Below are positions 6,689 through 35,701 of a stretch of 35,720 nucleotides of DNA, piece after piece. Source of the DNA: an uncultured Bacteroidales bacterium. Its GTDB lineage: Bacteria; Bacteroidota; Bacteroidia; Bacteroidales; FEN-979. Both the position numbers and the translations under genes were made by a program. The stretch is from positions 1 through 35,720 of the forward strand of contig CAIYES010000433.1 of the NCBI GenBank assembly GCA_903925275.1. The letters run 5' to 3'. Under the pieces are notes generated by a model. That model was not told where the DNA came from and ran no database searches. It saw only the letters and a program-made list of their open reading frames with translations. Numbering within the stretch: position 1 is the first letter of the stretch; every line of letters begins with the position of its first letter.

Positions 6689-7771
6689 TTATTGATATTC
6701 ATGATTTTTCATATGCAGGATCAGTTTTTCCCTGATGTAAGATTTTTCCCCGGGCGTCAATGAAAATTCATTTTTCCGAAAATTAATAGTTTCCCGGAGG
6801 AAATCCTTGATATTTTCTTCAAATTTATCGGTAAACTGTAAATTAAGTAATTGATATATCTTTTTTAAAACATCCACAGGATTCTTTTCAAGATCTTCAA
6901 AACGAATTTCAACAAAGTGCCCCGGCTGAAGTTGCATGCGATCAGTTTCAATGGCTGTTAAAAGACTCTCCAAAACCCCGACAGTCTCGTTAAAATCAGG
7001 ACGGTTAACGGGGAAATTTAACCGGTTCTGTTGCTGAACAATATCCCACATATAGATCGTTGAAGGGATCACATCATCCGGATGGCGCACAATGTGGATG
7101 AACTTTGATCGGGGGAACATTTCGCATAAGGTCTTTATCCTGTATGAGTTGAATGGATTTTTCGAAATAATTCTTTTTTTTGTTTTAAAATGTAATTTCC
7201 TGTAGAAAGCTTTTACATCGTTTTTCCATTCTTCGAGTTTATCACCGGAGGGTAAAAATGGTGTCCCGTGGTTGAGAAAGTATGACCCGGATTTGGCAAA
7301 TACTAGGTTCTCGAGTGGCGAATAGCTTGTGAGCCTGTAGATGGCATATTCATCTTCCTGCGGCTCATCCATGCCTATTTTAACCTGATCCATCGGACGA
7401 TGTTCAGAAATAACCTGTTTGAAAATCGGACGATAATATGGATGCGAAACCAGGAAACTGTCGGGCACAGCTACCTGAAACAGGGTAGGGGCGCTCAGTT
7501 GAGGATCAAGGCTCATCAGCTGATGCAATAAAGTGGAACCTGTTCTCCAGTGTCCGATGATAAATATGGGATCATCAGGAACAGGTGCATTGTGCAAGGC
7601 TTTGGAGTACCTTGCTTTTTCGACCCATGAAAAAAAAGACGACCAGCCGGCGCTTTGAATCAGAAAGGCCAGACGAAATATATTTTTGGCAGTAAAAGAT
7701 AATTTGTTCCGTTTTAACAGCCGAAACAATTGATCCAATCTGATTCCGGCTGTAAGGTAGGAATCTCTCAC
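6689..7771 (-). CDS. sulfotransferase-family protein (PAPS-dependent)
   Basis: A 360-residue protein with the two PAPS-binding signatures of the sulfotransferase superfamily. The 5'-phosphosulfate loop lies at 68-83 (DDPIFIIGHWRTGSTL), and the 3'-phosphate site at 223-236 (FIHIVRHPDDVIPS, Arg228 and Ser236). Later come the RFEDL and N-P segments typical of the family. The expected reaction moves sulfate from PAPS to a hydroxyl or amino group of a small molecule, sugar or lipid. The start is a GTG at 7771: an in-frame stop lies 24 bp upstream and no ATG precedes the catalytic loop. It lies 26 bp downstream of the ACP gene and is the last gene of block A. This suggests sulfation of the cluster product, though the acceptor is unknown. 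Confidence 0.8.
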   Translation of the reverse strand: MRDSYLTAGIRLDQLFRLLKRNKLSFTAKNIFRLAFLIQSAGWSSFFSWVEKARYSKALHNAPVPDDPIFIIGHWRTGSTLLHQLMSLDPQLSAPTLFQVAVPDSFLVSHPYYRPIFKQVISEHRPMDQVKIGMDEPQEDEYAIYRLTSYSPLENLVFAKSGSYFLNHGTPFLPSGDKLEEWKNDVKAFYRKLHFKTKKRIISKNPFNSYRIKTLCEMFPRSKFIHIVRHPDDVIPSTIYMWDIVQQQNRLNFPVNRPDFNETVGVLESLLTAIETDRMQLQPGHFVEIRFEDLEKNPVDVLKKIYQLLNLQFTDKFEENIKDFLRETINFRKNEFSLTPGEKSYIREKLILHMKNHEYQ

Positions 7772-7797
7772 AAGAATGGCAGTTAGGTGAAGTTATT

Positions 7798-8082
7798 TTA
7801 TGATGTAGGATTTGCGCGTTGGTCAGTGATAAACTGTGCAATGCTGTTTACCGAGCGTACAACCTCGCGGGCCAGGTTCTGATCGGCAATGCGGATCCCG
7901 TAATTTCGCTGGATGGCCATGATGATCTCAATGGCGTCAACAGAATCAAGGGTGAGCGCATTATCTCCGCCGAAAAGAGGCTTTTCATCATCCACGTCAT
8001 CCGGATTCACATCTTCGATAGCAAGCGTAGTCATGATCAACTTCTTGATTTCAAGTTTCAGATCCTCAGTAGGAATTGTCAT
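7798..8082 (-). CDS. acyl carrier protein (first of two)
   Basis: A 94-residue acidic protein with the phosphopantetheine attachment motif TLDSVDAIEI; the predicted modified residue is Ser47. The preceding LFGGDNALTLDS segment resembles ACPs of aryl polyene and flexirubin-type clusters more than housekeeping AcpP. Once 4'-phosphopantetheinylated it would carry a growing or starter acyl chain as a thioester. It lies 21 bp downstream of the BtrH-like gene and 26 bp upstream of the sulfotransferase gene. The BtrH-like enzyme next door could unload this carrier, as BtrH does for its ACP in butirosin synthesis. Confidence 0.9.
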   Translation of the reverse strand: MTIPTEDLKLEIKKLIMTTLAIEDVNPDDVDDEKPLFGGDNALTLDSVDAIEIIMAIQRNYGIRIADQNLAREVVRSVNSIAQFITDQRANPTS

Positions 8083-8103
8083 ATGTAAAAGTTTAATATT
8101 CGT

Positions 8104-9111
8104 TTATTTAATGGCTTTTGACAGGGTTTTAAAAAATCGTTCTTCCACATCTGCCCTGTCGGATATCATTTCGCTGAGTTGTTTCAATTTTTCCGGGCCA
8201 AGATCCCTGTTTTTGCCAATACGGGCAGAGAAAAGGGAGATTTCCCTCCATCCATCGCCGATTTTCATCAGTTCACCTGAAAGTTCTTTAAGTTGAGGTT
8301 TGTTGATTAATTCAGCAGCTTGCTGGAGGAATGTAGCATAGATAAATCGGAAACCGGCTCCACCGGTGCCCTGATCTTCCAGCAGGATGTTGATTTTCAT
8401 GATTTCATGCGACAGATGCTCGGTATCACGGGCAAACTTAGGCCATTCCACCACTTTTCGGGCAAACATCCGCATGCCTTTTATACCAATAAAAGGAATA
8501 GGGAGGCTTAACATATAAAAACAGGCTTTGTTTATACCTTTCGTGATGGCCTTGTTGTAATCAATTTCAGCAGGGAGTTTGTCAAGATGAAAAATAAAAC
8601 CTTTAGGCGACATGTTGCCCCCGGCAAATCGACCCTTTTCAAGCGAGGATGCATCAAGTTCAACCATTTTTGGGAAATAGGCATCGCTTATGGTGTATTT
8701 GTTATCAGCTTTGCCTGTAACCACCAGAAAATGAACATTGATGTGAACACGTTCCCACGACGGAACATAGTCCATATAGAAAAAATCAACCTGGGCAGCT
8801 GTAGGGATATCCTTCAGCAGTAATTGATCCAGAAGTTGTTGCCCCTTGAAGGGATCTTTAAAATCGTAGGTTTTAAAACGCACACCGATACGCTTTTCAA
8901 GGTTAGTGCGCATCTGCCCGGGTTTATTTCTGACGATAAAAGTCGGGAATGCGAAGGCTTTCATTTTGTGAAAGTAACCAAAGAAGATACCACTTGAGAT
9001 GCCGAAAACCAAGGGTTCACTTATTTGTAGTCCCCCATGGTTCAGCAAAGCGGTGATTGTCCCCGATTCGCAGTGGGCGGCCATTTTATGGTTGAAATTC
9101 CGTGAAATCAT
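8104..9111 (-). CDS. BtrH-like (DUF4872-type) ACP-dependent acyltransferase
   Basis: A 335-residue protein whose first 45 residues match the BtrH N-terminal pattern: a Cys in a HCESGT context (Cys14), then LLNHGG, a short SEPLVFGISSG stretch and a hydrophobic segment. A candidate catalytic triad is Cys14, His127 (HFLVV) and Asp143 (SDAYF). In butirosin biosynthesis BtrH transfers an acyl group from an ACP to an amine. Homologues recur in Bacteroidota flexirubin-type clusters. Adjacent to an ACP gene, this protein probably moves an acyl chain from carrier to acceptor. The C-terminal 130 residues are helical and less recognisable. The start codon directly follows the stop codon of the HTH-like gene, so the two are likely translated together. 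Confidence 0.7.
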   Translation of the reverse strand: MISRNFNHKMAAHCESGTITALLNHGGLQISEPLVFGISSGIFFGYFHKMKAFAFPTFIVRNKPGQMRTNLEKRIGVRFKTYDFKDPFKGQQLLDQLLLKDIPTAAQVDFFYMDYVPSWERVHINVHFLVVTGKADNKYTISDAYFPKMVELDASSLEKGRFAGGNMSPKGFIFHLDKLPAEIDYNKAITKGINKACFYMLSLPIPFIGIKGMRMFARKVVEWPKFARDTEHLSHEIMKINILLEDQGTGGAGFRFIYATFLQQAAELINKPQLKELSGELMKIGDGWREISLFSARIGKNRDLGPEKLKQLSEMISDRADVEERFFKTLSKAIK

Positions 9112-9618
9112 CTATTTCCTTTCTTCTATTTTAGTCAGCACAACATAAGGGTTGCCTGTAGGTGTTTGATCGACAGAAATTTTCTCTGCTTTATTTTCAA
9201 GCAGAAGATTTGATTCAAAATTACCCTTGTCATTCACCAGAACAACCTGCAAAAGGTTTGCCGCAGGAACATTGAATACTGCCGCGTATTGGCGGAGTTC
9301 ATCTACTGATACATCGCCGAACTGCTTCGGATCAAGATGCTTTTTTACCCGTGATTGCCTCACGCCCGCCCTGGCTGATAATTCGGAGAGGGTGAGGTCC
9401 TCGAGCACCATGAAATAGTTTACCGGGCTGATGCTGCCTTTGATCAGTTGCTCTCTCAGTTCAAGCTCCAGGTTCCTGCGTTTATAGAGGTAATCATCCA
9501 TATAGTTGGCCGAGATGTATGAACCTGTCTGCATTGGGCCATATTTTCCATCATCCTTCTCGACATAGAGGATCATCTGCTGTTCAGGATAATCAACAAA
9601 TCCGTCTTTTTCTTTCAT
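9112..9618 (-). CDS. small protein with HTH-like segment, function unknown
   Basis: A 168-residue soluble protein starting at the ATG at 9618. A longer reading from 9666 would overlap the permease gene. The segment LTLSELSARAGVRQSRVKKHLD, followed by a helix-rich stretch (VDELRQYAAVFNVPAANLLQ), resembles an XRE-type helix-turn-helix core. The N-terminal 60 residues and the C-terminal region are not recognised. It sits between the ABC permease and the BtrH-like gene in the same transcription unit. It could be a cluster regulator, or a non-DNA-binding partner of the acyltransferase. Confidence 0.55.
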   Translation of the reverse strand: MKEKDGFVDYPEQQMILYVEKDDGKYGPMQTGSYISANYMDDYLYKRRNLELELREQLIKGSISPVNYFMVLEDLTLSELSARAGVRQSRVKKHLDPKQFGDVSVDELRQYAAVFNVPAANLLQVVLVNDKGNFESNLLLENKAEKISVDQTPTGNPYVVLTKIEERK

Positions 9619-9640
9619 TGGATGAAATTTAAAAATCCTT

Positions 9641-10828
9641 CTATTTTCGTTTTGCAAAAATAGCAATGCTTGAGATCATTGCAAAACCGAAAAACAGGAT
9701 AAGCAAAATCGTATTTGGCAGGATACTCATAACGTTTCCTTCACGAATAAAGATGTTCAGATAATTATCAATACCCCAACGGATGGGGGAGAGGTAACTT
9801 AAATACTGAATAAATTTCGGCATGAGGTGGATTGGCAAAAAAGTTCCGCTGATAATGCCCAGTAAAACTACCATTACTGAGCCGAACAAGGCCGCCTGGT
9901 TATGCGTGGTTGCTGCTGCCCCAACAATTATTCCGAAACCAATGGCAGCCAAGGAAGCAGCCACCGTTGCAATGGCAATGGCCAGGTACTGATGGCCGAG
10001 CTGAAGCTGAGGAAATCCGAAGAATGTCGGGAAAACCCAGGTTCCGATGGCCATCATAAGTATGAATTGCAGGAGACAAACAACCAGGTAGGCCAATACT
10101 TTCCCGCCAAGAATTGCCGAAAGTCGCACCGGTAGCGAACGCAGCCGCTGAAAGCTGCCTTCGTTTTTTTCCGTGATCAGACTGCCGGCCAGGGGAATTA
10201 CGATAAAAAACATGGCAAACAGGATAAAACCGGGAACATTGTTCTGGATCACGTTGGGCTCGATGGCTGATTTCTCCTTCAGCGCGTATGTTTCGTGAAT
10301 GGGAGGGAGTTTTTGCATTGACTGGGCAACCATTCCAAGGATAACAGGCTTCATGTTTTCAGGGAGATTGCCTAAAATACCATTCATGGCTTCCTTTGTT
10401 GCAGTACCCTTGATAATATAACTGAGCGAGTTTGTCACCGAAGTTTTAAAGGTTTCCTGCAGGGTTGGGTCAATAAGCAGGATTATCGCCGAATCGGCAG
10501 GCAGAACGATTACCCCAAACTTGTAATCACCTCGCTCAATCAATGTTCTTGCCTGTGAGATGGTTACGGGTACCTTATCGATTTCAGCCACCGGGTGAAA
10601 AAAACCGGATGAATCGAGATTCGACTGAAGTTTGGCTGAAAAAAGGCTTTTTGATTCATCAACAAACAGGATCCGTGTTTTGGAGTTCTGGCTTTTCAGG
10701 GCATTTTCCTGCGCCAGGGTCACAACAAAAATCAAAAGGATAGGCATCATGAAAAGGATGATCAATCCCGGAATATCCCTGTAGAGTAACAGAAATTCTT
10801 TTTTCAGGATAAACCACAGTTTTCGCAT
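9641..10828 (-). CDS. ABC-2 type transporter permease
   Basis: A 395-residue membrane protein with the ABC-2 layout: one N-terminal membrane helix (about 21-39), an extracytoplasmic domain of about 160 residues, then five helices (about 199-218, 242-262, 281-304, 312-332 and 372-390). The EKNEGSFQRLRSLPVR loop is typical of ABC-2 permeases with DrrB/NodJ-like membranes. Such permeases export lipids, polyketides or drugs with a separate ATPase. No ATP-binding subunit with Walker motifs is encoded in this window, so the partner is elsewhere or lost. The gene lies 19 bp downstream of the methyltransferase gene in block A. Confidence 0.85.
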   Translation of the reverse strand: MRKLWFILKKEFLLLYRDIPGLIILFMMPILLIFVVTLAQENALKSQNSKTRILFVDESKSLFSAKLQSNLDSSGFFHPVAEIDKVPVTISQARTLIERGDYKFGVIVLPADSAIILLIDPTLQETFKTSVTNSLSYIIKGTATKEAMNGILGNLPENMKPVILGMVAQSMQKLPPIHETYALKEKSAIEPNVIQNNVPGFILFAMFFIVIPLAGSLITEKNEGSFQRLRSLPVRLSAILGGKVLAYLVVCLLQFILMMAIGTWVFPTFFGFPQLQLGHQYLAIAIATVAASLAAIGFGIIVGAAATTHNQAALFGSVMVVLLGIISGTFLPIHLMPKFIQYLSYLSPIRWGIDNYLNIFIREGNVMSILPNTILLILFFGFAMISSIAIFAKRK

Positions 10829-10847
10829 GGAGCAAAAATAGGAAGAT

Positions 10848-11951
10848 TTATCTGATTTTTTTTGCCGTAATCATGCTGATCGGTGCAATGGTGGGAATAA
10901 TTTGTGAAAGCCTGAAACCGGATTTTTCAAGCAGGAAACTATACTCATTCGCAGTACGCTCTTTTCCTCCCTGCATGGTGGCCATCATCTGGATATCCAG
11001 CAATTTGGCCAATGATGGCTTACTGTCCGGTGAAACCACCATTTCGATGATCAGCAGGAGGCTGTCTGTTCCGGTAGCCTGATGGATATTTTTCAGTAGT
11101 TCAATCGACTCTTCATCACCCCAGTTGTGGATGATGTTTTTGAGAATGAAGAGATCACCGGATAAGGGGATGGCATTGAAGAAATTACCTGGAATGATCT
11201 GTATCCTGTTTTCGACCTGATACCTGGCAACCATTTCAAACGCTTTCTCAAGCGCCTGAGGGGTGTCAAAAAGAATGCCCCGGCATCCGGGATTGAAATG
11301 AAGGATATTGGCCAGGAGAAATCCTTCGCCCCCCCCGATGTCAGTTATCAAAGGAAATTTCGAGAAATCAAAGGCATTGAGAATGGGTCGCAGTCCGATA
11401 TCCGAAAGGTTCGACATTGATTTATCAAACAGGGAACTTTCCTCCGGATGATCCTTGAGAAATTCATATATTTCCTTGCCATATTTATCCGTAAAGGCAT
11501 CTTTCCCGGTACGCACTGCATATTCCAGGTTGCTCATTAAATTCCAGTTCACAGGACCCAGATGATGGAGGATCATATGTCGCAGAGAGCCAGATTCATC
11601 CAGAAGAGCCCGGGACATTCCGTTAAGGGCAAAACGTCCGTCGCGGGTTTGCTTAAAAACACCCTGGCTGGAAAGTGTACGTAAAATACGTGAGACATTA
11701 GTCTCATCTAAGGAAAGACGCTCAGAAATTTCCCCGGCGGTAAGCGGTTTTTCTTTCAGGATGGCTGCAATGTCGAGTTTTGCTGCAACGTAAATGGATG
11801 GTAAAAGCCAGAATTGCTGAAATTGTTCAAAAAGCACGACATTTCCAGGGAATAATTTCCTGTTCAATTGCAATAAAAATGTGCGAAAAGCATTGATGGC
11901 CCTGATGAACCACACAGGTGGGAGTTTTTCGATGGAAGGTGGTTTACTCAT
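10848..11951 (-). CDS. O-methyltransferase (family 2, CrtF-like)
   Basis: A 367-residue protein with a winged-helix dimerisation domain (about 45-110, including LTAGEISERLSLDETNVSRILRTL split over helices) followed by a SAM-binding Rossmann fold. Motif I is ITDIGGGEG at 202-210, and the candidate catalytic base is His275 in LKNIIHNWGDEE. Family members include CrtF/acetylserotonin-type and polyketide O-methyltransferases, which methylate hydroxyls on hydrophobic small molecules. It lies in block A between the flavoprotein and the permease. Methylation of a hydroxyl or phenol of the cluster product is the simplest reading. The 103 bp upstream of its start contain no clear promoter, so it is probably transcribed from the promoter near 13.86 kb. 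Confidence 0.82.
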   Translation of the reverse strand: MSKPPSIEKLPPVWFIRAINAFRTFLLQLNRKLFPGNVVLFEQFQQFWLLPSIYVAAKLDIAAILKEKPLTAGEISERLSLDETNVSRILRTLSSQGVFKQTRDGRFALNGMSRALLDESGSLRHMILHHLGPVNWNLMSNLEYAVRTGKDAFTDKYGKEIYEFLKDHPEESSLFDKSMSNLSDIGLRPILNAFDFSKFPLITDIGGGEGFLLANILHFNPGCRGILFDTPQALEKAFEMVARYQVENRIQIIPGNFFNAIPLSGDLFILKNIIHNWGDEESIELLKNIHQATGTDSLLLIIEMVVSPDSKPSLAKLLDIQMMATMQGGKERTANEYSFLLEKSGFRLSQIIPTIAPISMITAKKIR

Positions 11952-12054: not shown

Positions 12055-13842
12055 TTACCTGGCAGGAAGGTTCTTCAACTGAAGTTCGAATTTTTCAAGA
12101 TCTGAGATAAGTTTGGCTTTTTTATCCTGGAGGTTTATTTTAACATTTGCAAACAACTCCTTATAATATTTGATGCCTTTGTCAAGGTTTTCAACGAATG
12201 TGGTGAAATATTCCTCCTGCTTTTCTGACCAGGGCCGGGCAGTCTCATCCATTTTGTTTTTCAGGTAATCGATGTACATCTTCAGTTCCTTCATGAACAT
12301 GTTGGGCCTGTCATTCCGTTTGATTACATTGATTTTACCATAGATATGATCCACCATCTCTTTCAGCGTCATCACTTCTGAGAAATAGGCCAGATTTGGT
12401 CCCGGACAAACAGACACGCCTGGTTTTTCTACTTTGGTATCCAGGTGGTTGACTAAAAGGGCAGATGTCCCGAGGCCAACACACAGACAAGCTTTTTCGA
12501 CAATTTTATCGTATTCGTGCTGAAATTCATTTTCAGGCAAACCTCGTGTTTTCAGTTCCTCAATTTTCTGTTTTTGATATTTTCTTGAAGCTGTGCAAAG
12601 CGGCGGAAATCCGAACTCTTCGCTGAGGGCTAAGTAGTTTTTCGGACAGGGATTTCCTGGTGTGTGGTTGTGGATATATGCCTCTTTTTCGATGTCTTTT
12701 GTATTTCCCCTTATATTGTTGAAAGGAACGTTGAGTGGGCTGACATTGCTGACAAAAAGGTCATCTTCTTTTGCTTCGCATAAGAGTTTCAGTGTTTTTT
12801 CATCAACGTTTACCACTTCAGGAACCAGCAGGAACGGAGTTCCCCAACCAACAGAATCAAGTTGGTAATGGTCTGCAAGAAATTGATGTTCTTCCGCTGT
12901 TCCAACTCCGCCCTGGGCTGTGATTTTAATTTCAAGAGGTTCGGGAGGGCAGGGACGGTTTTTTGCCTTCAGCGCTATTTTTAACAGCGTGAAAGTTTGA
13001 TTGATGAGGTCTTCACGATTATTATTGATCTCCTCAAGCACTGGTCCAAGCAGGAATCCTGTAGTTGGAAAGGCGTGTCCACCGCAATTTAACCCTGATT
13101 CAATGCGGTATTCAGAGACCCATATTCCCTTTTTCGCCAGGAATTTCCCCTGTATGATGGCTGATCGGAAATCACTTACTTTCAAGGTGATTTTCTTTTT
13201 TAACCAGAAATTGCTGTCAGGATAGAATTCATCAAAGGTCTCAAGGTAATTATATAAACGGGGGCTCATCCCTGCCGACATCACAAGCGATGAAGATAGG
13301 TCGCTTTTGACAAATCCGCGTACTGCGGCATATGCATTATTGTATTCGACCGGAAGCTTTTCATGATTTCGGTAATTTTCCTTATCCACTTTGGTCATGA
13401 TGTTCACATCGATGCTGCCCATGGTGAGGTTTTCGTGAATCCATTGCTTCACATCCAGGTCATTCCAGTTTTGTTTCAACTGTTCAAATTTCTGTTTCAG
13501 TTGTGATGAATCCTGCAATAGTTCGATATATTTCGAAAATTCACTGTTTTTTTGTGCGTATGATGTTTTAAGTTCTTCAAATTTGTCTTTGGCAAGTTTC
13601 TGAACGAGGTTAAGATAGGCTGTAATTCTTTTAGCTCTGAAATCGTCGATTTTATCAGTAATAGCCTGAAAAGGAAGATCAAATTTTCTGCTGTAGAACT
13701 CCCTGAGTTTTTCTATCAATATGTCATCCCCAAGCGATATCACAGATGAGATTCCCAGATGAGCTACCTTGACAGGTGTATCGATGGAATATCCGATTCC
13801 CAGTATCGGGATATGGAATGAATGGGGGGTGCTTTTATTCAT
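12055..13842 (-). CDS. PfaD/nitronate-monooxygenase-like flavoprotein with coiled-coil insert
   Basis: A 595-residue protein. It opens with FHIPILGIGYSIDTPVKVAHLGISSVISL (split strands of a TIM barrel) and later has two NMO/PfaD landmarks: a G-x-x-x-GGH site (GLNCGGHAF, 250-258) and ITAQGGVGTAEEHQFLADHY followed by VGWGTPFL (307-338). These are FMN-binding features in nitronate monooxygenases and in the PfaD-type enoyl reductases of PUFA and trans-AT polyketide systems. Unlike those, it carries a long helical insert (about 80-130), a C-terminal helix pair (540-590) and eight cysteines, five of them at 399, 416, 452, 454 and 479. The ATG at 13842 is preferred because the longer reading overlaps the receptor gene and lies upstream of the promoter. 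It might reduce double bonds on an ACP-bound chain. The family is moderately sure, the function is not. Confidence 0.6.
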   Translation of the reverse strand: MNKSTPHSFHIPILGIGYSIDTPVKVAHLGISSVISLGDDILIEKLREFYSRKFDLPFQAITDKIDDFRAKRITAYLNLVQKLAKDKFEELKTSYAQKNSEFSKYIELLQDSSQLKQKFEQLKQNWNDLDVKQWIHENLTMGSIDVNIMTKVDKENYRNHEKLPVEYNNAYAAVRGFVKSDLSSSLVMSAGMSPRLYNYLETFDEFYPDSNFWLKKKITLKVSDFRSAIIQGKFLAKKGIWVSEYRIESGLNCGGHAFPTTGFLLGPVLEEINNNREDLINQTFTLLKIALKAKNRPCPPEPLEIKITAQGGVGTAEEHQFLADHYQLDSVGWGTPFLLVPEVVNVDEKTLKLLCEAKEDDLFVSNVSPLNVPFNNIRGNTKDIEKEAYIHNHTPGNPCPKNYLALSEEFGFPPLCTASRKYQKQKIEELKTRGLPENEFQHEYDKIVEKACLCVGLGTSALLVNHLDTKVEKPGVSVCPGPNLAYFSEVMTLKEMVDHIYGKINVIKRNDRPNMFMKELKMYIDYLKNKMDETARPWSEKQEEYFTTFVENLDKGIKYYKELFANVKINLQDKKAKLISDLEKFELQLKNLPAR

Positions 13843-13861
13843 AGGTTTGGTTATGGAACTG

Positions 13862-13869
13862 CAAAGATA
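13862..13869 (-). promoter_or_regulatory. candidate -7 element (TATCTTTG) driving block A
   Basis: TATCTTTG on the minus strand matches TAnnTTTG exactly and lies 20 bp upstream of the ATG at 13842, in the 38-bp gap after the TonB-dependent receptor gene. A TTTTG occurs farther upstream but at shorter spacing than usual, so the -33 box is uncertain. It would start the flavoprotein-to-sulfotransferase unit. Confidence 0.5.
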
Positions 13870-13880
13870 CGGCTTTTTTT

Positions 13881-16288: not shown

Positions 16289-16675
16289 TTACGCTTCCAT
16301 CATTTCATCTACCTTATCATTGGTGATGCGGGACCATTTGGGATTTACGAGGTTCTGACCCGAGAAATCAAAGTTTACCAGGTCAAACGTTTCTCCATAG
16401 AATGTCAGCTTGCTGTGCAGATCGGGTGTATGTTCAATAAAAATAAAGTTTCCGGGTGTGCAGTTCAGTTCGTTCATGATGCAGGTTGCCAAAGGGGCAC
16501 ACCATTCAGTAACAGGTGTTCCGGGGTTCTGCCGGTAGATTTCAGTGGCTATGGCCAATATTTTGCCATCTTTCCTGGAAATGACCTTTAATCCGCATTT
16601 AGAGGGACTTTCCCATTGTCCAAGATAGTCAAAGTAGCGGTCCATGTATTTGTTAAAGTCGGGATTGGTCTCCAT
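16289..16675 (-). CDS. small conserved-looking protein, function unknown
   Basis: A 128-residue soluble protein read from the ATG at 16675. The reading from a TTG at 16681 adds only two residues. It has no signal peptide or membrane segment. Visible features are an aromatic N-terminal part (YMDRYFDYLGQWES), three cysteines and a mixed alpha/beta central region (ILAIATEIYRQ, GNFIFIEHTPDL). I do not recognise a family. It lies 38 bp upstream of the TonB-dependent receptor start and is separated from the radical SAM gene upstream by 246 bp of tandem repeats. The clean frame and codon use favour a real gene. Confidence 0.6.
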   Translation of the reverse strand: METNPDFNKYMDRYFDYLGQWESPSKCGLKVISRKDGKILAIATEIYRQNPGTPVTEWCAPLATCIMNELNCTPGNFIFIEHTPDLHSKLTFYGETFDLVNFDFSGQNLVNPKWSRITNDKVDEMMEA

Positions 16676-16715
16676 CGGCAAGTGATCGGGTTAGCTGGTT
16701 AGGTTTTGGTGAAAT

Positions 16716-16843
16716 GGGTAAACGGGTGAACGGGTGAACGGGTAAACGGGTGAACGGGTGAGCAGGTGAACGGGTGAACGGGTGAACGGGTGAACGGGTG
16801 AACGGGTAAACGGGTGAGCAGGTGAGCGGGTGAGAGGGTGAAC
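16716..16843. repeat. octamer tandem array, 16 x gggtgaac-like
   Basis: Sixteen contiguous 8-bp units of consensus gggtgaac with variants gggtaaac, gggtgagc and aggtgaac. The array occupies half of the gap between the small unknown gene and the radical SAM gene. The same unit set recurs, reverse-complemented, at 34102-34165. The frames through the array are open by periodicity alone and should not be called genes. Confidence 0.95.
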
Positions 16844-16854
16844 ACACGAACACC

Positions 16855-16917: not shown

Positions 16918-16921
16918 TTCA

Positions 16922-26827: not shown

Positions 26828-26831
26828 GCGA

Positions 26832-28365: not shown

Positions 28366-28407
28366 GAAAGTTTTAAGTGATTAAGTTTTAAGTGTTAAGT
28401 GGTGGCA

Positions 28408-29851: not shown

Positions 29852-30760
29852 TTATTGAAGCAGAAACGAATCGAGGGCGAAAAAACGATAATTGCCATCT
29901 ACGAATTTGGCATTTTTTACCAAATCTTTGGAAGTACCACATTCGACAAACGTTGTAATCTTTTTATCAAGCATCATCCTGTTTGTGCTGAACCAGTTCA
30001 AAGGTTGAAAAAGGTTGCGGATCACCTCATTGCGCATCGATTCTGCTGTTACAAGAATTGTTTGATCGATAAGTGAGATGATCTGGTTGCCCTGAGATGA
30101 GAATTTGAGATGGCCAATCCTGCGTGCGAATTCCATGGCGCCTTCCTTTACAAACCGGGAATGATAGGGAAGCGACACACCCAGGTCACGTACATGCAGC
30201 GCCCCTTCCTCCTTTGAATGCTCCAGTAGTTTCGTGAGATCTTCACGGAAACCTGAAACCACGAATGAATGTGGTGCATTTTGGTTGGTGATTTCAACCC
30301 GCAAACCGAAATGATTGATCAGTTGCTGGATGTCCTCGCTGTTCAGACCAATGAGAATTCCCATCCCGAACCGGCCAATTTTCAATGAATCAAGCAGTGA
30401 ATGGTATGCCAGCCTGATAAGTTCCAGGCCGGTTTCAAAAGAGACCACACCCGCATCAAACATTGCAGCATAGATACCCATGCTGTAACCTGCTGTATAT
30501 AAGGGATAAAAGTTATGTTTTCTCAGAATTACGGAAGCTGTACAACTGTATATGTAAGTGAGGTATTGGGTGCGCAGTTCATCTTCAGGAAATGTTTGTC
30601 CGTTGAAATGGAAGTCGGATAAGACAGAATCAACAGTTTCAGCTCCTGTATGAAGGAGTTGCGAGAATTGTTCATCAAACCCGGGCAGGTTTTGTCCGGG
30701 ATGATCGATATAATCGCGGGTGAATGCCGGGAAGATAAATGATAAACTGGTATCTGCCAA
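29852..30760 (-). CDS. divergent FabD-like acyltransferase
   Basis: A 302-residue protein with the acyl-CoA:ACP transferase fold pattern. The nucleophile elbow is AGYSMGIYAA (Ser93), the Arg is in GLELIRL (Arg116), and the His in LPYHSRFV is His200. Deviations from FabD are marked: the leading FPGQGSQ is replaced by FIFPAFTRDY, and the GHSLGE elbow reads GYSMGI, with Tyr for His and Ile for Glu. It may load an acyl group other than malonyl, or load an ACP in a non-canonical way. The start is TTG at 30760, since an in-frame stop lies 9 bp upstream. It follows the second ACP gene by 14 bp and is likely part of the ketosynthase transcription unit. Confidence 0.75.
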   Translation of the reverse strand: MADTSLSFIFPAFTRDYIDHPGQNLPGFDEQFSQLLHTGAETVDSVLSDFHFNGQTFPEDELRTQYLTYIYSCTASVILRKHNFYPLYTAGYSMGIYAAMFDAGVVSFETGLELIRLAYHSLLDSLKIGRFGMGILIGLNSEDIQQLINHFGLRVEITNQNAPHSFVVSGFREDLTKLLEHSKEEGALHVRDLGVSLPYHSRFVKEGAMEFARRIGHLKFSSQGNQIISLIDQTILVTAESMRNEVIRNLFQPLNWFSTNRMMLDKKITTFVECGTSKDLVKNAKFVDGNYRFFALDSFLLQ

Positions 30761-30774: not shown

Positions 30775-31083
30775 TTATTTATCAAGTTCCATTAGCCGGT
30801 TTTCATGTTCAATGATAAGAAGTTGCATTTCGATCAATTGACCGATGGTTGCAACCGGGTGTTTAACAGCGTATTTGCCAATTACCTTGAGTTCAATATC
30901 GAGATTGTATTTTTTCTTGAAAATTTCAATCAGTTCGAGGAACATCAGCGAGTCTCCATCAAGATCATTGATTATACTGGTATTATCATTGATTTGTTCA
31001 ATGTCAGCTTCACATTCTTCGGCAAAAAAACTGTAAACGATCTCTTTGACTTCGCTCTTTGTTCTTTCTGTAATTGTAGCCAT
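30775..31083 (-). CDS. acyl carrier protein (second of two)
   Basis: A 102-residue acidic protein with LDGDSLMFLELIE around the predicted phosphopantetheine site Ser45. The ATG at 31083 is preferred over a TTG at 31104. It has the helical ACP pattern (a hydrophobic first helix, VYSFFAEE; then NDLDGDSL). A charged C-terminal tail extends the usual length by about 20 residues. It lies between the ketosynthase and the divergent acyltransferase, so these three probably form one loading and elongation set. It differs from the ACP of block A and may carry a different chain. Confidence 0.9.
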   Translation of the reverse strand: MATITERTKSEVKEIVYSFFAEECEADIEQINDNTSIINDLDGDSLMFLELIEIFKKKYNLDIELKVIGKYAVKHPVATIGQLIEMQLLIIEHENRLMELDK

Positions 31084-31101
31084 GGTATCTTTACTTTTTT
31101 G

Positions 31102-31109
31102 CAAAAATA
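31102..31109 (-). promoter_or_regulatory. possible -7 element (TATTTTTG) ahead of the second ACP gene
   Basis: TATTTTTG on the minus strand matches TAnnTTTG and lies 18 bp upstream of the ATG at 31083, in the 44-bp gap behind the ketosynthase gene. It could give extra, independent expression of the ACP and acyltransferase. No -33 box was identified. Confidence 0.3.
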
Positions 31110-31127: not shown

Positions 31128-32348
31128 TCATTCCTGATATTTTTTTAATACCAGACATGCATTATGACCGCCAAAACCAAAAGAGTTGGACAGTGCCACC
31201 CTGATATCCTTTGATCTTGAAGTATTTGGTATATAATCGAGATCCAGGTCTGGATCAGGCTCATGGTAGTTTATGGTAGGAGGTAGAATTCCATGCCTGA
31301 GACTCATGGCCGTTATGATGGCCTCAATGGCTCCGGCAGCGCCAATGGTGTGGCCGAGCATCGATTTTGAGGACGAAACTGGAATGTGGTATGCAAGATC
31401 ACCGAAAACCTGTTTGATGGCCATGGTTTCGTAACGGTCATTGAGTTCGGTTGAGGTACCGTGTGCATTGATATATCCGACGTCACTTTTTTGAATGTCA
31501 GCATTTTTCAGCGCCAGCTCCATGGTTTGCGCCATGCCTTCGCCATCTTTCATAGGTGCCATGATATTGTATCCTTCGCTTGTGAGGGCATAGCCGGCAA
31601 TGGTGGCATGAATCTGACCATTTCGGGCCAGGGCATGTTCCTTCGATTCAAGCAGGAGCACCCCGGCACCTTCGCCGATCACGAAGCCATCACGATTTTT
31701 TGAAAAAGGTTTACTGGCCTCAGCGGGAGGATCATTGGCAACGGATAATGCAAACAATGCATTAAATCCCTTGATCTCCTCAGCATTGATTATGGAATCG
31801 GCCCCCCCGACAATGACCACATCTGCCTGACCATTTTTAATCATCTCATACCCAAAGGCTATCGCATAAGCAGAGGAAGCACATGCTGTGTTGACTGCAA
31901 AGTTGGGCCCCATAAGGCGGTATTCAAGGGAAATCCATGCGGGCATTGAGTTTGTCATGGTTTTAAAAACCGTATTTTGCAGGGTAGTATCTTTTTCAGC
32001 ACTTGAATTGCCCGTGTTAACAACACCCATGATGACGCTGCACCGCGTCCGGTCAAGTTGGTTAAAGTCAATACCGGAATCTGCGACGGCTATCTTTGCT
32101 GCAGCGACACACATGCGTGTGACTCTGGTCATTTGACTCGCAGCACGTTTTTTGATATAATTGCGTGAAAGTTCTTCAAATTCGGGGGGCACTTCAGCCG
32201 CAACCCTTGTTGCACAAGAACTTGCATCGAACAGGGTGATGTTTTTGGTACCACTTTTACCTGCAACGATGTTCTTCCAGTTTTCTTCCAATGACAAACC
32301 CAGGGATGAGATAAGTCCCATCCCCGAGATAACAACTTCTTTCGACAT
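31128..32348 (-). CDS. beta-ketoacyl-ACP synthase, FabF/KAS II type
   Basis: A 406-residue ketosynthase with the complete catalytic triad: Cys156 in VNTACASSAYA, His296 in NAHGTST and His333 in MLGHTIGAAGA. The C-terminal NSFGFGGHNA glycine-rich segment is also present. It joins an acyl chain to malonyl-ACP with loss of CO2. Full catalytic residues rule out a chain-length-factor role. It lies 8 bp downstream of the haem protein gene and upstream of an ACP and an acyltransferase. That context marks it as the chain-building enzyme of the cluster, separate from housekeeping fatty acid synthesis. No second ketosynthase is in the window. Confidence 0.95.
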   Translation of the reverse strand: MSKEVVISGMGLISSLGLSLEENWKNIVAGKSGTKNITLFDASSCATRVAAEVPPEFEELSRNYIKKRAASQMTRVTRMCVAAAKIAVADSGIDFNQLDRTRCSVIMGVVNTGNSSAEKDTTLQNTVFKTMTNSMPAWISLEYRLMGPNFAVNTACASSAYAIAFGYEMIKNGQADVVIVGGADSIINAEEIKGFNALFALSVANDPPAEASKPFSKNRDGFVIGEGAGVLLLESKEHALARNGQIHATIAGYALTSEGYNIMAPMKDGEGMAQTMELALKNADIQKSDVGYINAHGTSTELNDRYETMAIKQVFGDLAYHIPVSSSKSMLGHTIGAAGAIEAIITAMSLRHGILPPTINYHEPDPDLDLDYIPNTSRSKDIRVALSNSFGFGGHNACLVLKKYQE

Positions 32349-32356
32349 CCTGATAA

Positions 32357-32749
32357 TTATTTCTGCAAACTATTGGCCCACCTGCAAACCATATCAATTT
32401 CGGCCTGGGTTGGAACGTTTGTTGGATTATTTTTACGCCATTTAGAGGGAGGCATGTCACTTTTTGTAAGGGCTTTGCAAATTGCTTTTGCTTTATCCAT
32501 CTGTTTTTCAGCAGTGTACGCGTCCCAGTTCGAAAAATTCACCTTGCCTTTTGCCATAAAATTTCCATCGTCAGCATGGCAATCCATACATGTTTTCTGT
32601 ACAAACTTAAGAACGCTGTCGGGAAGGGCAGTACCAGGTCCGGCCGGTACGGGTTTTTTGGATCCGATAACCGTTTGCGGATTTAATACCAGCATAAAAG
32701 CAAAAATAGCACTAATTGCTATGAGAGAAAATAACGCAATTTTTTTCAT
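32357..32749 (-). CDS. membrane-anchored monohaem c-type haem-binding protein
   Basis: A 130-residue protein with a signal/anchor helix (KKIALFSLIAISAIFAFMLVL) and a covalent haem motif TCMDCH (Cys54, Cys57, His58). An M-P-P segment with Met99 is the likely axial ligand, followed by S-K-W. This is the pattern of the small haem-binding domain common in Bacteroidota. The ATG at 32749 is chosen; the longer reading begins at a TTG and lacks a signal start. It probably faces the periplasm and passes electrons. It is the first gene of the ketosynthase unit, 8 bp from the ketosynthase start. That is an unusual partner for fatty-acid-type enzymes. Confidence 0.8.
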   Translation of the reverse strand: MKKIALFSLIAISAIFAFMLVLNPQTVIGSKKPVPAGPGTALPDSVLKFVQKTCMDCHADDGNFMAKGKVNFSNWDAYTAEKQMDKAKAICKALTKSDMPPSKWRKNNPTNVPTQAEIDMVCRWANSLQK

Positions 32750-32773
32750 TGTTTGTATAGTTTTTGTTGTAGG

Positions 32774-32781
32774 CAAAGGTA
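32774..32781 (-). promoter_or_regulatory. candidate -7 element (TACCTTTG) for the ketosynthase unit
   Basis: TACCTTTG on the minus strand matches TAnnTTTG and lies 25 bp upstream of the ATG at 32749. The gap (32750-32891) has no other feature. A clean -33 box is not evident. Confidence 0.45.
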
Positions 32782-32891: not shown

Positions 32892-33923
32892 CTAACATTT
32901 TTCGAACGGCCCGTGTTCGATACCAAAATACTCTTTAATTGCATGGTTCATCCTGTCAGTTGCCACAGATGAAAGCGCCGTAAAACGTTCGCAGGAAGAA
33001 AGCCATGTTTGACGCAAATGTTCTATAATTTCCAATGCATGTTCCGGGTCGTTACTAGTTATATCTTCCATTGGATAGCTATAGAATCCTTGAAGCGTTT
33101 TAACACCTGATTTTCCTGCTGCAACAAGGTCAGTCAATCTGGCTATAAATAAAGCATAGTTGCTTTTATCTGGATAATCCCTTGAATAATTCTGAATTGA
33201 GGCCAGCATGGTGTCCAGACCAACGCTGTCGCAGAAATCAAAAACCCCGAATGGGAAGAAGTTATTTTTAACTAATTGGTCCATTTGATAATAAGTACAT
33301 GTTTCGTTGTGAACGAACAGGAAGGCTTCATTTTGAAAATCAAGGAAAATTTTATTGAGGATAAAACTGTTTTGCTCATCAAGAATGATGTAGCGACGAT
33401 GAATTGTATTCAGAAAAGATTCAATTATTGTGCAGGTAAGAGCCGTTGTTGACGATGCAAGAGTGACTTCTGCAATGTCTTTCAATGGCACCGGATAGAA
33501 AAAATGAATACCGGCAAACTGACGATTGCCTGCAGTTTTTGGCATCATGCAGGATGGGTTGATAGAGGATGAGTTGGATGTAAAGATGGCCTCAGGATTA
33601 ACAATTTTATCCAATTGATGAAACAGTTTTTTCTTCTCTGCAATATCCTCAGGGATTGCTTCGATAATCAGATCACAATCCTGTAACTTATCAATATCAG
33701 TGGTGATGGAGGTTTGGATAAGCTTGTCATACCTCGCCTGGTCAATGCTCCCTGAATCAAACAACCGTCTGATGCGCCTCTCTAACTGCCTGGTGAGTTT
33801 TTCTATGTCTGCATCCTGACTGCAAAACCATACCAGCTCAAACTGAAAATCAAGCAGGTAAAAAAAAATGCTGGTGCCCATTTTACCCTCACCAATGATA
33901 CCCACCTTTTTGATACTGATCAT
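32892..33923 (-). CDS. 3-hydroxyacyl-CoA dehydrogenase family protein
   Basis: A 343-residue protein, starting at the ATG at 33923, with an NAD-binding motif GIIGEGKMG (8-16). Its catalytic residues match the family: His140 in GIHFFYPVP, Glu152 in IAEV and Asn190 in FILNKIF. Ser117 and Ser119 lie in TSNSSSI. A C-terminal domain ends in GFYSYP. It would interconvert 3-hydroxyacyl and 3-oxoacyl groups, usually on CoA. It could therefore be the ketoreducing step of the cluster, because no FabG-like reductase is seen here. A reading from 34082 would add 53 residues encoded only by a heptamer tandem repeat, which is rejected. No promoter motif was recognised between the repeat and the start. Confidence 0.82.
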   Translation of the reverse strand: MISIKKVGIIGEGKMGTSIFFYLLDFQFELVWFCSQDADIEKLTRQLERRIRRLFDSGSIDQARYDKLIQTSITTDIDKLQDCDLIIEAIPEDIAEKKKLFHQLDKIVNPEAIFTSNSSSINPSCMMPKTAGNRQFAGIHFFYPVPLKDIAEVTLASSTTALTCTIIESFLNTIHRRYIILDEQNSFILNKIFLDFQNEAFLFVHNETCTYYQMDQLVKNNFFPFGVFDFCDSVGLDTMLASIQNYSRDYPDKSNYALFIARLTDLVAAGKSGVKTLQGFYSYPMEDITSNDPEHALEIIEHLRQTWLSSCERFTALSSVATDRMNHAIKEYFGIEHGPFEKC

Positions 33924-33930
33924 TTTTAGT

Positions 33931-34084
33931 GACAAATGACGAATGACGAATGACGAATGACGAATAACGAATAACGAATAACGAATAATGAATAACGAAT
34001 AACGAATAACGAATAACGAATAACGAATAACGAATAACGAATAACGAATAACGAATAACGAATGACAAATGACAATTGACAAAT
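33931..34084. repeat. heptamer tandem array, 22 x aacgaat/gacgaat
   Basis: Twenty-two contiguous 7-bp units (aacgaat, gacgaat, gacaaat, aatgaat variants) end only 7 bp before the ATG of the dehydrogenase gene. The reverse frame stays open with a 7-residue period (SLFVIRY), because three units make 21 bp. Its position in the 5' leader means that copy-number changes would alter the leader length. Confidence 0.95.
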
Positions 34085-34101
34085 GACTTGATACTAATCC
34101 T

Positions 34102-34165
34102 GTTTACCCCTTCACCCGCTCACCTGTTTACCCGTTTACCCGTTTACCCGCTCACCCGCTCACCC
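34102..34165. repeat. octamer tandem array, 8 x gtttaccc/gctcaccc
   Basis: Eight contiguous 8-bp units. Reverse-complemented they read gggtaaac and gggtgagc, the same set as at 16716-16843. The stop codon of the fourth radical SAM gene (34160-34162) and its last codons lie within it, so the protein C-terminus is set by repeat DNA. Confidence 0.92.
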
Positions 34166-35701
34166 GCTCTTCCTCCAAGGCCCTTTATCCTGTTCCATTA
34201 CAATTTTCCGGTATTCTGCCATGTTCCGCTTGTGTGCAAGGATATGCCTGTGGTACCCGAGCATCGAAAGCATGAAGCCAAGTCCTTTGTCGATGGCAAT
34301 TTGCTTGGAAAGAATCAATTTTAAAATAAACGAGAAGAGTTTTTTTCGTTCCGGGTCGGTTGTCAGGACAAATTCCTTGAAGGTGATCCAGGAGAGTCGT
34401 GCTTTCATTAATGCCGGAATATCACCTCCCGGGCGGATAAAGGCACCATTGCTCAATAATGCTTCGGCCTTTTTACGGATGGTGTCGAAAGAATAGAGCC
34501 GGGCAATAGTCTCCATGTATTTGTCGAAGATGTCAATTTGCGACATATTCATATAGTGCAGGGTGGGGAAGTGACCGACCCCCAGTTCCGGATCACAGGA
34601 AAGTAAACGTCCCTCTTCGGTGAATTTTTTGTTGGTTTCGGTTCCGGGAGGGGCATTAAGCAGATGCAGATTAACATTTGCAAGATGGTGTAGCATGGTG
34701 AAATCGAAAATCCGATCGAATTCATCGAGCGTATCGTTGTCGAAACCAACAACGAAGCTTGCATTTATCTGGATTCCTGCTGCGTGTATTTTACTGATGG
34801 CCTCTGCATAAATTTTTCCACCGCGATTATGATGTTTATGCGATTCGTCAAGACTGTCGGGGTTTAACGATTCAAATCCCACAAGGATATTGAAACAACC
34901 TGCATCGGCCATCAATTTCAGGAGTTCATCATCTGTGGCCACATCCAGGCTGCACATACAGCCCCAGGATATTTTTAACGGAATAATGGCCCTCATCAGC
35001 TCTTTGGCATATTTCTTATTGATGGTGAGATTGTCATCGACAAAAAAGAAATATTTGGAAGGTGCTGCCTTGATTTCATCCACAACGTTTTCGATTGCAC
35101 GATAACGCATTTTTGTACCGAAGTTTTTAGAAACCAGACAAAAATCGCAATTGAAGGGACATCCGCGTGAAACCTGAATAGCCACCTGGAATATCCGTTT
35201 CATATTTACCAGATCCCAGCGGGGAGGTTTCTGTGTTTTATATTCAACGAATGTTTGCGATTCATATACTGGTTTCATGCAGCCGTTTTCAAAATCTGCA
35301 AGGCACCTTTCCCATTTGCCTTCTGCTTCGCCAACAATAACACAATCGCCATGTTTAAGCGCTTCATCCTGCATAAAAGATGCAAAGGGTCCGCCAAAGA
35401 TAACCTTAGCTCCCATGGCACGATACCTGTCGCCCAGCTCAAAACTCCGTTTGCCTGTCGCTGCCAGCGTGGTTATTCCTACGATGTCAGGTTTTTCGTT
35501 TTTTGGCAACGCTTCGATCTCCTCATCAAAAATCCGGATGTCGTAATGATCAGGCGTAAGCGCTGCAATGGTAGGAAGAGCGAGTGGAATCATAAACCTC
35601 CTCTTGCCGAACATCTTAGCCATTTCACTGTGGGCAGGGTAGTTGATAAACCGCTGCTGTGGTGAAATCAAAAATAACGTATATCTCTTATAATCAGACA
35701 A
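34160..35701 (-). CDS. B12-binding radical SAM enzyme (4 of 4), DUF4070-type C-terminus
   Basis: A 513-residue protein. A cobalamin-binding-like domain (to about 140) has PDIVGITTLA, KVIFGGPF and VIVGEAEG. The cluster motif is VSRGCPFNCDFC, with Cys181, Cys185 and Cys188. A barrel follows with FFFVDDNLTIN and GFESLN, and the roughly 150-residue C-terminal region resembles DUF4070, as in hopanoid methylase-type proteins. The start is TTG at 35701. An in-frame TAA lies directly upstream, and later ATGs would remove the first strand, so a non-ATG start is the best reading. It is related to the radical SAM protein that ends at 16922. The last two codons lie in the octamer array. Reaction and substrate are unknown. 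Confidence 0.85.
   Translation of the reverse strand: MSDYKRYTLFLISPQQRFINYPAHSEMAKMFGKRRFMIPLALPTIAALTPDHYDIRIFDEEIEALPKNEKPDIVGITTLAATGKRSFELGDRYRAMGAKVIFGGPFASFMQDEALKHGDCVIVGEAEGKWERCLADFENGCMKPVYESQTFVEYKTQKPPRWDLVNMKRIFQVAIQVSRGCPFNCDFCLVSKNFGTKMRYRAIENVVDEIKAAPSKYFFFVDDNLTINKKYAKELMRAIIPLKISWGCMCSLDVATDDELLKLMADAGCFNILVGFESLNPDSLDESHKHHNRGGKIYAEAISKIHAAGIQINASFVVGFDNDTLDEFDRIFDFTMLHHLANVNLHLLNAPPGTETNKKFTEEGRLLSCDPELGVGHFPTLHYMNMSQIDIFDKYMETIARLYSFDTIRKKAEALLSNGAFIRPGGDIPALMKARLSWITFKEFVLTTDPERKKLFSFILKLILSKQIAIDKGLGFMLSMLGYHRHILAHKRNMAEYRKIVMEQDKGPWRKSG

Follow-up and report, generated by a model that had tools for sequence, protein, structure and literature searches.

The 35,720 base stretch analysed here (the window) is one complete contig, CAIYES010000433.1, of an uncultured Bacteroidales bacterium, and is probably the distal part of a flexirubin-type aryl-polyene supercluster in which a polyene would be joined to a second lipid part. 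The host genome (G000, in which the window is C433; genomes, contigs and loci are designated G, C and L) is 5.65 Mb in 574 contigs and 94.9% complete. Genes were assigned with Pfam and NCBIfam models and their cut-offs, and 26 were accepted in the window. The original prediction, a reading of the window alone, had described a lipid/polyketide-like cluster with flexirubin-type tailoring and export genes and an unusual content of B12-binding radical S-adenosylmethionine (SAM) enzymes, and in this it was right. The four radical SAM genes (rSAM1 to rSAM4, at 16922, 26832, 28399 and 34160) all have an intact CxxxCxxC motif in every row compared. The span given for the cluster, 6689..35701, was too short, as FlxY (4521-5858) lies just outside its start and the right end continues on another contig.

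Linkage of the window to a flexirubin-type polyene block

FlxY forms the left edge of the cluster, and with four other genes of the window belongs to the polyene part:

4521..5858, minus strand: FlxY, aryl-acid CoA ligase; NCBIfam FlxY 716.5 bits (cut-off 520); ends polyene clusters in relatives
18282..19979, minus strand: C45 autoproteolytic acyltransferase; 227.7 bits (cut-off 85)
19972..21501, minus strand: CrtI/CrtD-like oxidoreductase; family models, and polyene clusters of relatives
21498..25385, minus strand: MMPL-PlsC-methyltransferase fusion; family models, and polyene clusters of relatives
25378..26565, minus strand: GT2-DUF2062; Pfam, and polyene clusters of relatives

GT2-DUF2062, the MMPL-PlsC-methyltransferase fusion, CrtI and FlxY also end polyene clusters that lack the second module, in G528, G556, G440, G518 and G567, and in G238 as far as it was read. 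C45 occurs in the clusters of G528, G556 and G238, and not in those of G440, G518 and G567; G518 carries rSAM1 and its small partner gene. Since the same genes close module-free polyene clusters, all five listed above are standard polyene genes. The typical order in clusters without rSAM2 (G528 and G556, and largely G238, G440, G518 and G567) is FlxA, FlxB, FabF, LPLAT, TIGR04072 or FlxJ, FabZ, thioesterase, ketosynthase (KS) and acyl carrier protein (ACP), followed with local variations by FabF2, chain length factor (CLF), deacetylase, LolA2, hotdog dehydratase, GT2-DUF2062, the MMPL-PlsC-methyltransferase fusion, CrtI, C45 and FlxY. Judging from gene order, the module interrupts the polyene genes at two places in the family of the window, between the hotdog dehydratase and GT2, and between C45 and FlxY.

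The original prediction held that there was no aryl-pigment core, but this is present on other contigs of the same genome. FlxA (825 bits) and FlxB are on C46, while C87 carries FabF, LPLAT and the first part of TIGR04072, and C571 the remainder; C46 overlaps C87 by 50 bases, and C87 and C571 have no end overlap to each other. The window itself has neither DarA/DarB nor an ammonia-lyase, as had been stated, and outside it the ammonia-lyase was found (FlxA, C46:6745-8286) and DarA/DarB were not. Around TIGR04072 in relatives, where read, the block comprises FlxA, FlxB, KS/CLF pairs, DarG, DarH, an ABC transporter, deacetylase, LolA2 and LolB2. Scores there (cut-offs in brackets) are 856.7 bits for FlxA (700), 396.6 for FlxB (340), 388 and 404 for DarH (300), 216.8 for LolA2 (125) and 87.7 for LolB2 (60). 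With FlxY over its cut-off in the window, and FlxA and FlxB together on one contig in relatives, the cluster is classed as flexirubin-type; since DarA/DarB were not found in its own genome, it is not established as a flexirubin cluster.

At its right end the cluster runs past the window onto C11 of the same genome, with an exact end overlap of 34 bases, partly A/T-rich. C11 carries KASIII, two crotonases, a hotdog thioesterase and a hotdog dehydratase, the genes found beyond rSAM4 in relatives. FlxA shares a contig with a module of the window type in G315, G341, G342, G344 and G351, and in G315 the entire run from FlxA to FlxY is about 56 kb (G343, G340, G347 and G336 are the same contigs as G315, G317, G375 and G308, and were taken as the same genomes). 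The remainder is also contiguous in G350, where FlxA was not found. G432 and G531 show another arrangement, with module genes in two arms on either side of an intact FlxA-to-FlxY cluster. Among the 247 genomes of the order sample, rSAM2 (E <= 1e-80) was found in 14, and FlxA is present in 10 of these, compared with 36 of the 233 others (Fisher p 1.2e-5, genomes taken as independent).

Several observations weigh against a single bipartite cluster. The polyene block and the module are on different contigs in the genus of the window (own genome; G308/G336: C62, C140), so that their coupling there is deduced from relatives. FlxA has no match in four of the 14 rSAM2 genomes (G382, G383, G486 and G559) and no strong match in four of the 18 rSAM3 genomes (G348, G349, G350 and G352), so the module is not confined to genomes with FlxA. 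DarB over its cut-off is also held by five of the 14 rSAM2 genomes, and the module is thus not merely a replacement of DarAB. The separation within the genus would suit an envelope lipid that has nothing to do with aryl pigments, recruiting flexirubin genes solely for tailoring and export, and a polyene block that makes a separate pigment. So would G490, where the module stands by itself on C9, FlxA and DarA/DarB being on C5, and a Spirochaetes locus (L077) that has the module in a genome without a strong FlxA match. Such a separate lipid is nevertheless unlikely, because the window holds FlxY, C45, CrtI, the MMPL-PlsC-methyltransferase fusion and GT2, which are polyene-cluster genes in other genomes, because module and polyene cluster form one run in two different arrangements (G315-type; G432/G531), and because rSAM2 and FlxA co-occur above expectation. 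Contiguity with the FlxA block in relatives likewise weakened the idea of a stand-alone lipid cluster. The 'different envelope lipid' of the original prediction is therefore too strong, although the lack of canonical DarA/DarB stands, and the locus is best read as an aryl polyene with a second arm.

The gene set recurs in order in relatives. At least 20 cluster genes of the window are collinear, single losses aside, in seven of the 18 other genomes of the genus (G297, G301, G303, G306, G308, G309 and G312), and G317, of another genus, likewise keeps at least 20 in order, which is more than chance. G298, G302, G307 and G310 have partial sets only, mostly limited by contig ends, and for G296, G299, G304 and G311 the flanks read were about 4.8 kb.

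Some loci differ from this pattern. In G313 (L023-L024, C86 about 432559-441500) the cluster is reduced: no KS, MMPL, CrtI or DarH was matched at the locus, and DarG (49 aa matched) and the O-methyltransferase (208 aa) are fragments. Yet FlxY, rSAM1 (95%), GT2-DUF2062, the 130-aa partner and the 614-aa family look intact there, which would fit some other use. In G297 (L051/L062), C45, CrtI and the MMPL-PlsC-methyltransferase fusion are missing between rSAM1 and GT2, with intact flanks. Elsewhere, FlxA lies beside a DarA-like gene and rSAM1 (78%) in G463:C91 (L162), the usual polyene genes being absent from the stretch read, and in the control genome Bacteroides ihuae the FlxA and FlxJ models score over their cut-offs, so flexirubin-type polyene genes occur in Bacteroides too.

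TIGR04072 and FlxJ in the polyene block

All 18 rSAM3 genomes checked hold a gene of the TIGR04072 family distinct from rSAM3, which scores over the cut-off (360) in 16; in the other two, the own genome (C87/C571) and G339 (357.6 bits), the gene is truncated at contig ends. The rSAM3 gene of the window, with 326.9 bits, falls below the cut-off and is a paralogue of the family. Among the 46 FlxA-positive genomes of the order sample, TIGR04072 is present in 18 (17 over the cut-off, and the own genome, where it is split between C87 and C571) and FlxJ (counted at E <= 1e-20) in 25. No genome has both, and three (G418, G463 and G520) have neither; the exclusion has a Fisher p of 5e-10, genomes taken as independent. 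A common slot, beside LPLAT, FabZ or FabF, is occupied by TIGR04072 in 17 of 18 cases (not G322) and by FlxJ in 19 of 25. In G453, FlxJ is near FabZ yet between two KS genes. On a tree of 45 FlxA proteins (G578 left out), the TIGR04072/FlxJ label needs nine changes, at least four of them on strongly supported branches. The natural reading of this pattern would be repeated non-orthologous replacement in one step.

As passages of one flexirubin study describe, the ring methyl of flexirubin derives from methionine and sits on a tyrosine-derived ring (PMC3992019). We infer that FlxJ adds this methyl. Since TIGR04072 and FlxJ never co-occur and mostly use one slot, TIGR04072 is probably the ring C-methylase of the polyene pigment, doing the job that FlxJ does in related bacteria. 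We know of no experimental assignment of flexirubin ring-methylating enzymes.

Other counts speak against this exchange. Only 12 of the 25 FlxJ genes exceed the FlxJ cut-off, and six of the 25 are away from polyene genes (G417, G434, G487, G490, G519 and G532). The label is clustered on the FlxA tree, where shuffled labels average 13.4 changes and six to eight of 500 shuffles are as low as the observed value. With only five supported independent pairs on that tree, the sign test gives p 0.125, and significance is out of its reach. Finally, TIGR04072 without FlxA was checked within the rSAM3 genomes only, of which 14 of 18 have a strong FlxA match. In G436:C9 (L179) the order is LPLAT-TIGR04072-DarA-DarB, so the exchange is also seen in a genome with true DarB.

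Among solved structures, TsrM, an aromatic C-methylase, is the closest to both TIGR04072 (103 bits) and rSAM3 (6wte, 125.8 bits). Arg69 of TsrM blocks the lower face of cobalamin, according to parts of two reports (PMC8992657, PMC13331322). Its equivalent is present in all 23 distinct TIGR04072 sequences (26 rows) and in 26 of 27 distinct rSAM3 sequences (28 rows), the one without it being N-terminally cut, and it is absent from rSAM1, rSAM2 and rSAM4 of the window. Glu273 of TsrM, which keeps SAM off the cluster and lies on the unique iron, is Val or Ile in TIGR04072 and Thr in rSAM3, which counts against a full likeness. Residue comparison thus supports a TsrM-like cobalamin site in TIGR04072 and rSAM3, while a TsrM-like non-radical mechanism is not supported.

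The family name of TIGR04072, 'rSAM_ladder_B12', which rSAM3 matches at 1.6e-97, raised a further explanation, a ladderane-like pathway of the kind proposed for anammox bacteria, with strained or polyunsaturated hydrocarbon lipids as the product of TIGR04072-type radical SAM enzymes, CrtI-like enzymes and KS paralogues. The gene types agree with this in part: predicted ladderane clusters contain SAM radical, phytoene-dehydrogenase-like, glycosyltransferase, phenylacetyl-CoA-ligase and FabF genes, as listed in sections of Rattray et al. (PMC2649909). It is very improbable, given that rSAM3 is below the cut-off (326.9 of 360), that FlxY, FlxA and FlxB exceed flexirubin cut-offs, and that TIGR04072 genes over the cut-off occupy the FlxJ slot of FlxA/FlxB polyene clusters; the anammox clusters were compared by published description, not sequence. 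A ladderane cluster was the first strong lead, and was downgraded once TIGR04072 equivalogs appeared beside FlxA/FlxB in that slot. A single contig scan with rSAM3 gave no anammox locus among its 28 loci.

The second module

The preferred reading, an aryl polyene with a second arm, assigns most other genes of the window to a module whose recurrent core is FabF, ACP2, the FabD-like acyltransferase, 3HCDH, KASIII, ECH-a, ECH-b, thioesterase and rSAM2. DarG, DarH, ACP1, the O-methyltransferase, the sulfotransferase, rSAM1 with its 130-aa partner, rSAM3 and rSAM4 are variable. The other cluster genes of the window are:

5861..6580, minus strand: conserved 239-aa protein, no family match; kept in G303, G301, G306 and G317
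6689..7771, minus strand: sulfotransferase (module); Sulfotransfer_3 1.7e-33; present in the module arm of G432 and G531
7798..8082, minus strand: ACP1, partner of DarH; PP-binding, phosphopantetheine Ser kept in 15/15 rows
8104..9111, minus strand: DarH, BtrH-related acyltransferase; 325 bits (cut-off 300), Cys kept in 16/16
9112..9666, minus strand: DarG-like protein; DarG 56.7 bits (cut-off 170) and DarG family 54.6 (cut-off 70), both below
9641..10828, minus strand: ABC-2 permease; ABC2_membrane_3 7.6e-35
10848..11951, minus strand: O-methyltransferase-type enzyme; Methyltransf_2 1e-45, FlxJ model 38.9 bits of 560
12055..13899, minus strand: 614-aa family; absent from the G315 cluster
13881..16250, minus strand: TonB-receptor-like outer-membrane protein with CarbopepD_reg start; Pfam
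16289..16681, minus strand: 130-aa partner of rSAM1; adjoins rSAM1 in the window, G432, G531, G518, G578 and G315
16922..18193, minus strand: rSAM1, B12-binding radical SAM; Pfam B12-binding above and Radical_SAM slightly below cut-off
26832..28172, plus strand: rSAM2, B12-binding radical SAM (module core); Pfam/NCBIfam; in 14/247 order genomes
28399..29835, plus strand: rSAM3, TIGR04072 paralogue; 326.9 bits (cut-off 360), 1.6e-97
29852..30760, minus strand: FabD-like acyltransferase without malonyl-binding Arg; Pfam below cut-off, NCBIfam fabD 3.8e-33
30775..31104, minus strand: ACP2 (module); PP-binding, Ser kept in 31/31 rows
31128..32348, minus strand: FabF-type ketosynthase (module); fabF 461.6 bits (cut-off 493.75), PRK07314 450.8 (cut-off 387)
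32357..32776, minus strand: small haem-binding protein; Haem_bd 2.6e-10, CxxCH in 23/23 rows
32892..34082, minus strand: 3-hydroxyacyl-CoA dehydrogenase, 3HCDH (module); 3HCDH_N 1.2e-36
34160..35701, minus strand: rSAM4, B12-binding radical SAM; Pfam/NCBIfam

The Pfam and NCBIfam models thus bear out the enzymes that the original prediction had named from the letters: the FabF-type ketosynthase, two ACPs, FabD-like acyltransferase, 3-hydroxyacyl-CoA dehydrogenase, CrtI-like oxidoreductase, BtrH-like and C45 acyltransferases, MMPL-PlsC-methyltransferase fusion, GT2-DUF2062, ABC-2 permease, sulfotransferase and the four B12-binding radical SAM proteins. The exception is the 'PfaD-like flavoprotein' at 12055-13899, which has no significant match, to an FMN TIM-barrel (NMO/PfaD) family or otherwise, in Pfam, NCBIfam or PDB sequences. 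The 614-aa family has members in 20 of the 41 genomes searched, i.e., the own genome, 16 of the 18 others of the genus, and G317, G329 and G335; its AlphaFold model, built from two sequences, has a mean pLDDT of 38 and is unusable.

Residues were counted after proteins below length and identity limits had been dropped. The Cys of the module KASIII is kept in all 22 distinct sequences (23 rows), and in all of them His is replaced by Asn and Asn by Tyr; DarB keeps Cys-His-Asn in 3/3. With His and Asn lost, KASIII would not decarboxylate malonyl. In the FabD-like protein, Ser and His are conserved but the malonyl-binding Arg is Ala (33/33 rows), and the protein would move a non-carboxylated acyl group. 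FabF keeps Cys-His-His in 28/28 rows, and CxxxCxxC is kept in all distinct rows of rSAM1 (19), rSAM2 (36), rSAM3 (28) and rSAM4 (23). Across relatives whose FabD is only 46-59% identical, rSAM1 is 89-95% identical, indicating very strong constraint on rSAM1.

These residues also bear on an alternative dialkylresorcinol (DAR) pathway, in which KASIII performs a DarB-type condensation, a flavoprotein or radical SAM enzyme replaces DarA, and an ordinary flexirubin results. The KASIII orthologue of G317 has the StlD/DarB subfamily as its best NCBIfam match (104 bits, cut-off 450), the own KASIII has StlD as one of its best PDB matches, and DarH, ACP and ABC-2 permease are common to the module and the DAR loci of G528 and G556. 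In the own genome neither DarA nor DarB was found: the best match to the DarB model, by KASIII, is 82.5 bits of 550, and DarA gave no match at 1e-10 with the DarB neighbour of G556, presumably DarA, as query. That query is positive in nine of 27 genomes, all nine with DarB of at least 536 bits and eight over its cut-off, and negative in G238 (DarB 498.9 bits). NF053538, tried as a DarA model, is another family and matched nowhere. The low DarB score of KASIII tells against such a pathway, as do the catalytic His and Asn, lost in 22/22 module KASIII and kept in 3/3 DarB, and the five genomes that hold both DarB and rSAM2. It is improbable, and simple replacement of DarAB as the sole explanation was rejected, with true DarB in 5/14 rSAM2 genomes and KASIII lacking His/Asn.

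The rSAM3 search of genome contigs gave 28 loci, of which 26 are from Bacteroidales, Bacteroidetes or Draconibacterium metagenome-assembled genomes (MAGs), one from an 'uncultured bacterium' (L075, with contigs matching G375 of the order of the window) and one from a Spirochaetes MAG (L077). Sources, from isolate names, include anoxic lakes, fen, the Black Sea, Zodletone spring and sulfidic caves, and the Bacteroidales carriers are probably anaerobic. L077 has FabF, ACP2, rSAM2, KASIII, ECH-b, ECH-a, thioesterase, 3HCDH, rSAM3, DarG, DarH and ACP1 within 21 kb; the best FlxA match of its genome is 205.8 bits (31% identity). In the phylum sample, rSAM3 (E <= 1e-60) was found in one of 296 genomes, the own one. 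It is absent from its place next to rSAM2 in G303 (L028-L030), G301 (L047-L049) and G306 (L035-L036), all of the same genus, which marks it as an optional step.

Other features of these loci were seen in passing. The small CxxCH haem protein (32357-32776) sits within the biosynthetic operon. Two small genes, by ACP2 and between the crotonases in G531:C25 (L132) and G432:C8 (L111), are candidate holo-ACP synthases (4'-phosphopantetheinyl transferases), judged by eye from translations. Intergenic tandem repeats (16653-16922, 33930-34082, the right end of the window and the ends of L125/L126) mimic open reading frames (ORFs) or N-termini, and contigs of the host genome break at such repeats. An ORF at 16653-16922, the 27th candidate, reads through a repeat and is probably no gene; similarly, the true start of 3HCDH is probably near 33929, the upstream part being repeat read-through. 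Left of the cluster, 113-4528 encodes a glycosyltransferase (GT87) and a BACON-domain protein of 980 aa that carries a type IX secretion tail; both are outside the cluster in relatives, except for a BACON-protein match in G317.

Predicted product and known systems

Flexirubins serve as chemotaxonomic markers, and to our knowledge no flexirubin-type cluster with B12 radical SAM enzymes has been described. In the open-access literature no paper was found that links flexirubin with radical SAM, or aryl polyene with cobalamin and radical SAM; subscription papers are mostly outside this coverage.

Each chemical step of the following scheme is a deduction from gene sets, linkage, mutual exclusion and active-site residues. 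By homology to flexirubin clusters, FlxA would make 4-coumarate and FlxY would activate it; the type II KS/CLF, FlxB and FabZ enzymes would build the polyene, which GT2-DUF2062, the MMPL-PlsC-methyltransferase fusion, CrtI, C45 and LolA2/LolB2 would finish and export. The extra genes of the window, with KASIII, the two crotonases and the thioesterase of C11, would form the second module, laid out like a DAR locus (KASIII, ACP, DarG, DarH, ABC-2 permease) with different enzymes. In it, ACP2, FabF, the 3HCDH reductase and the crotonases may make special acyl chains, which the Cys-only KASIII would join with no decarboxylation of malonyl. The O-methyltransferase and sulfotransferase may decorate the product at hydroxyls, and DarH with ACP1 would join it to the polyene acid. 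The B12 radical SAM enzymes are predicted to methylate carbon: TIGR04072, encoded outside the window, on the tyrosine ring of the polyene in place of FlxJ, rSAM3 on a ring in the second part, as a dispensable step, and rSAM1, rSAM2 and rSAM4 on other carbons, which they would modify by methylation.

The closest known systems are the flexirubin clusters of Chitinophaga pinensis and Flavobacterium johnsoniae (flxA-flxY with darA/darB), and the likeness to the C. pinensis cluster rests on family models, not on C. pinensis sequences. Shared are FlxA, FlxB, FlxY, DarG/DarH, LolA2/LolB2 and KS/CLF sets, and also deacetylase, PlsC, glycosyltransferase and exporter genes, going by the gene list within PMC3992019. 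Unlike those clusters, the present one has a second KS/ACP module, four extra B12 radical SAM genes and a sulfotransferase, with TIGR04072 instead of FlxJ, and DarA/DarB were not found in its genome. DAR loci (darA/darB) have in common with the module a KASIII of the StlD/DarB neighbourhood together with DarG, DarH, ACP and ABC-2 permease, whereas the module has KASIII without His/Asn, no DarA, and its own set of FabF, FabD, 3HCDH and crotonases. With the predicted ladderane clusters of anammox bacteria it shares a TIGR04072-related radical SAM gene and, as described in portions of PMC2649909, similar gene types; it differs in its flexirubin markers and in a window gene below the TIGR04072 cut-off, this comparison being by description only. 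TsrM, a cobalamin-dependent tryptophan C2-methylase, is the nearest solved structure to rSAM3 and TIGR04072 and shares the Arg69 equivalent, whereas Glu273 is not kept.

The exchange of a B12 radical SAM enzyme for an ordinary methyltransferase in one slot yields a clear-cut prediction for TIGR04072, whose name comes from the unsolved ladderane pathway. Clusters called 'ladderane' by antiSMASH were reported from many non-anammox phyla in the Cariaco Basin, with function unknown, in the part of PMC9902471 that concerns them. Put together tentatively, TIGR04072 may be a cobalamin-dependent aromatic C-methylase that was swapped with FlxJ several times in flexirubin-type clusters, with rSAM3 and the three other B12 enzymes acting on the second arm, the product of the KASIII lacking His/Asn and the acyltransferase lacking Arg, of a new bipartite, probably methylated and sulfated, class of aryl-polyene lipids in Bacteroidales; the genes of the arm also occur in a Spirochaetes MAG, and part of the non-anammox 'ladderane' content could then be pigment methylation. 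If true, this would give TIGR04072 a testable job and would caution against reading it as evidence of ladderanes outside anammox bacteria. The second module suggests a class of lipids not described so far, possibly a new class of product.

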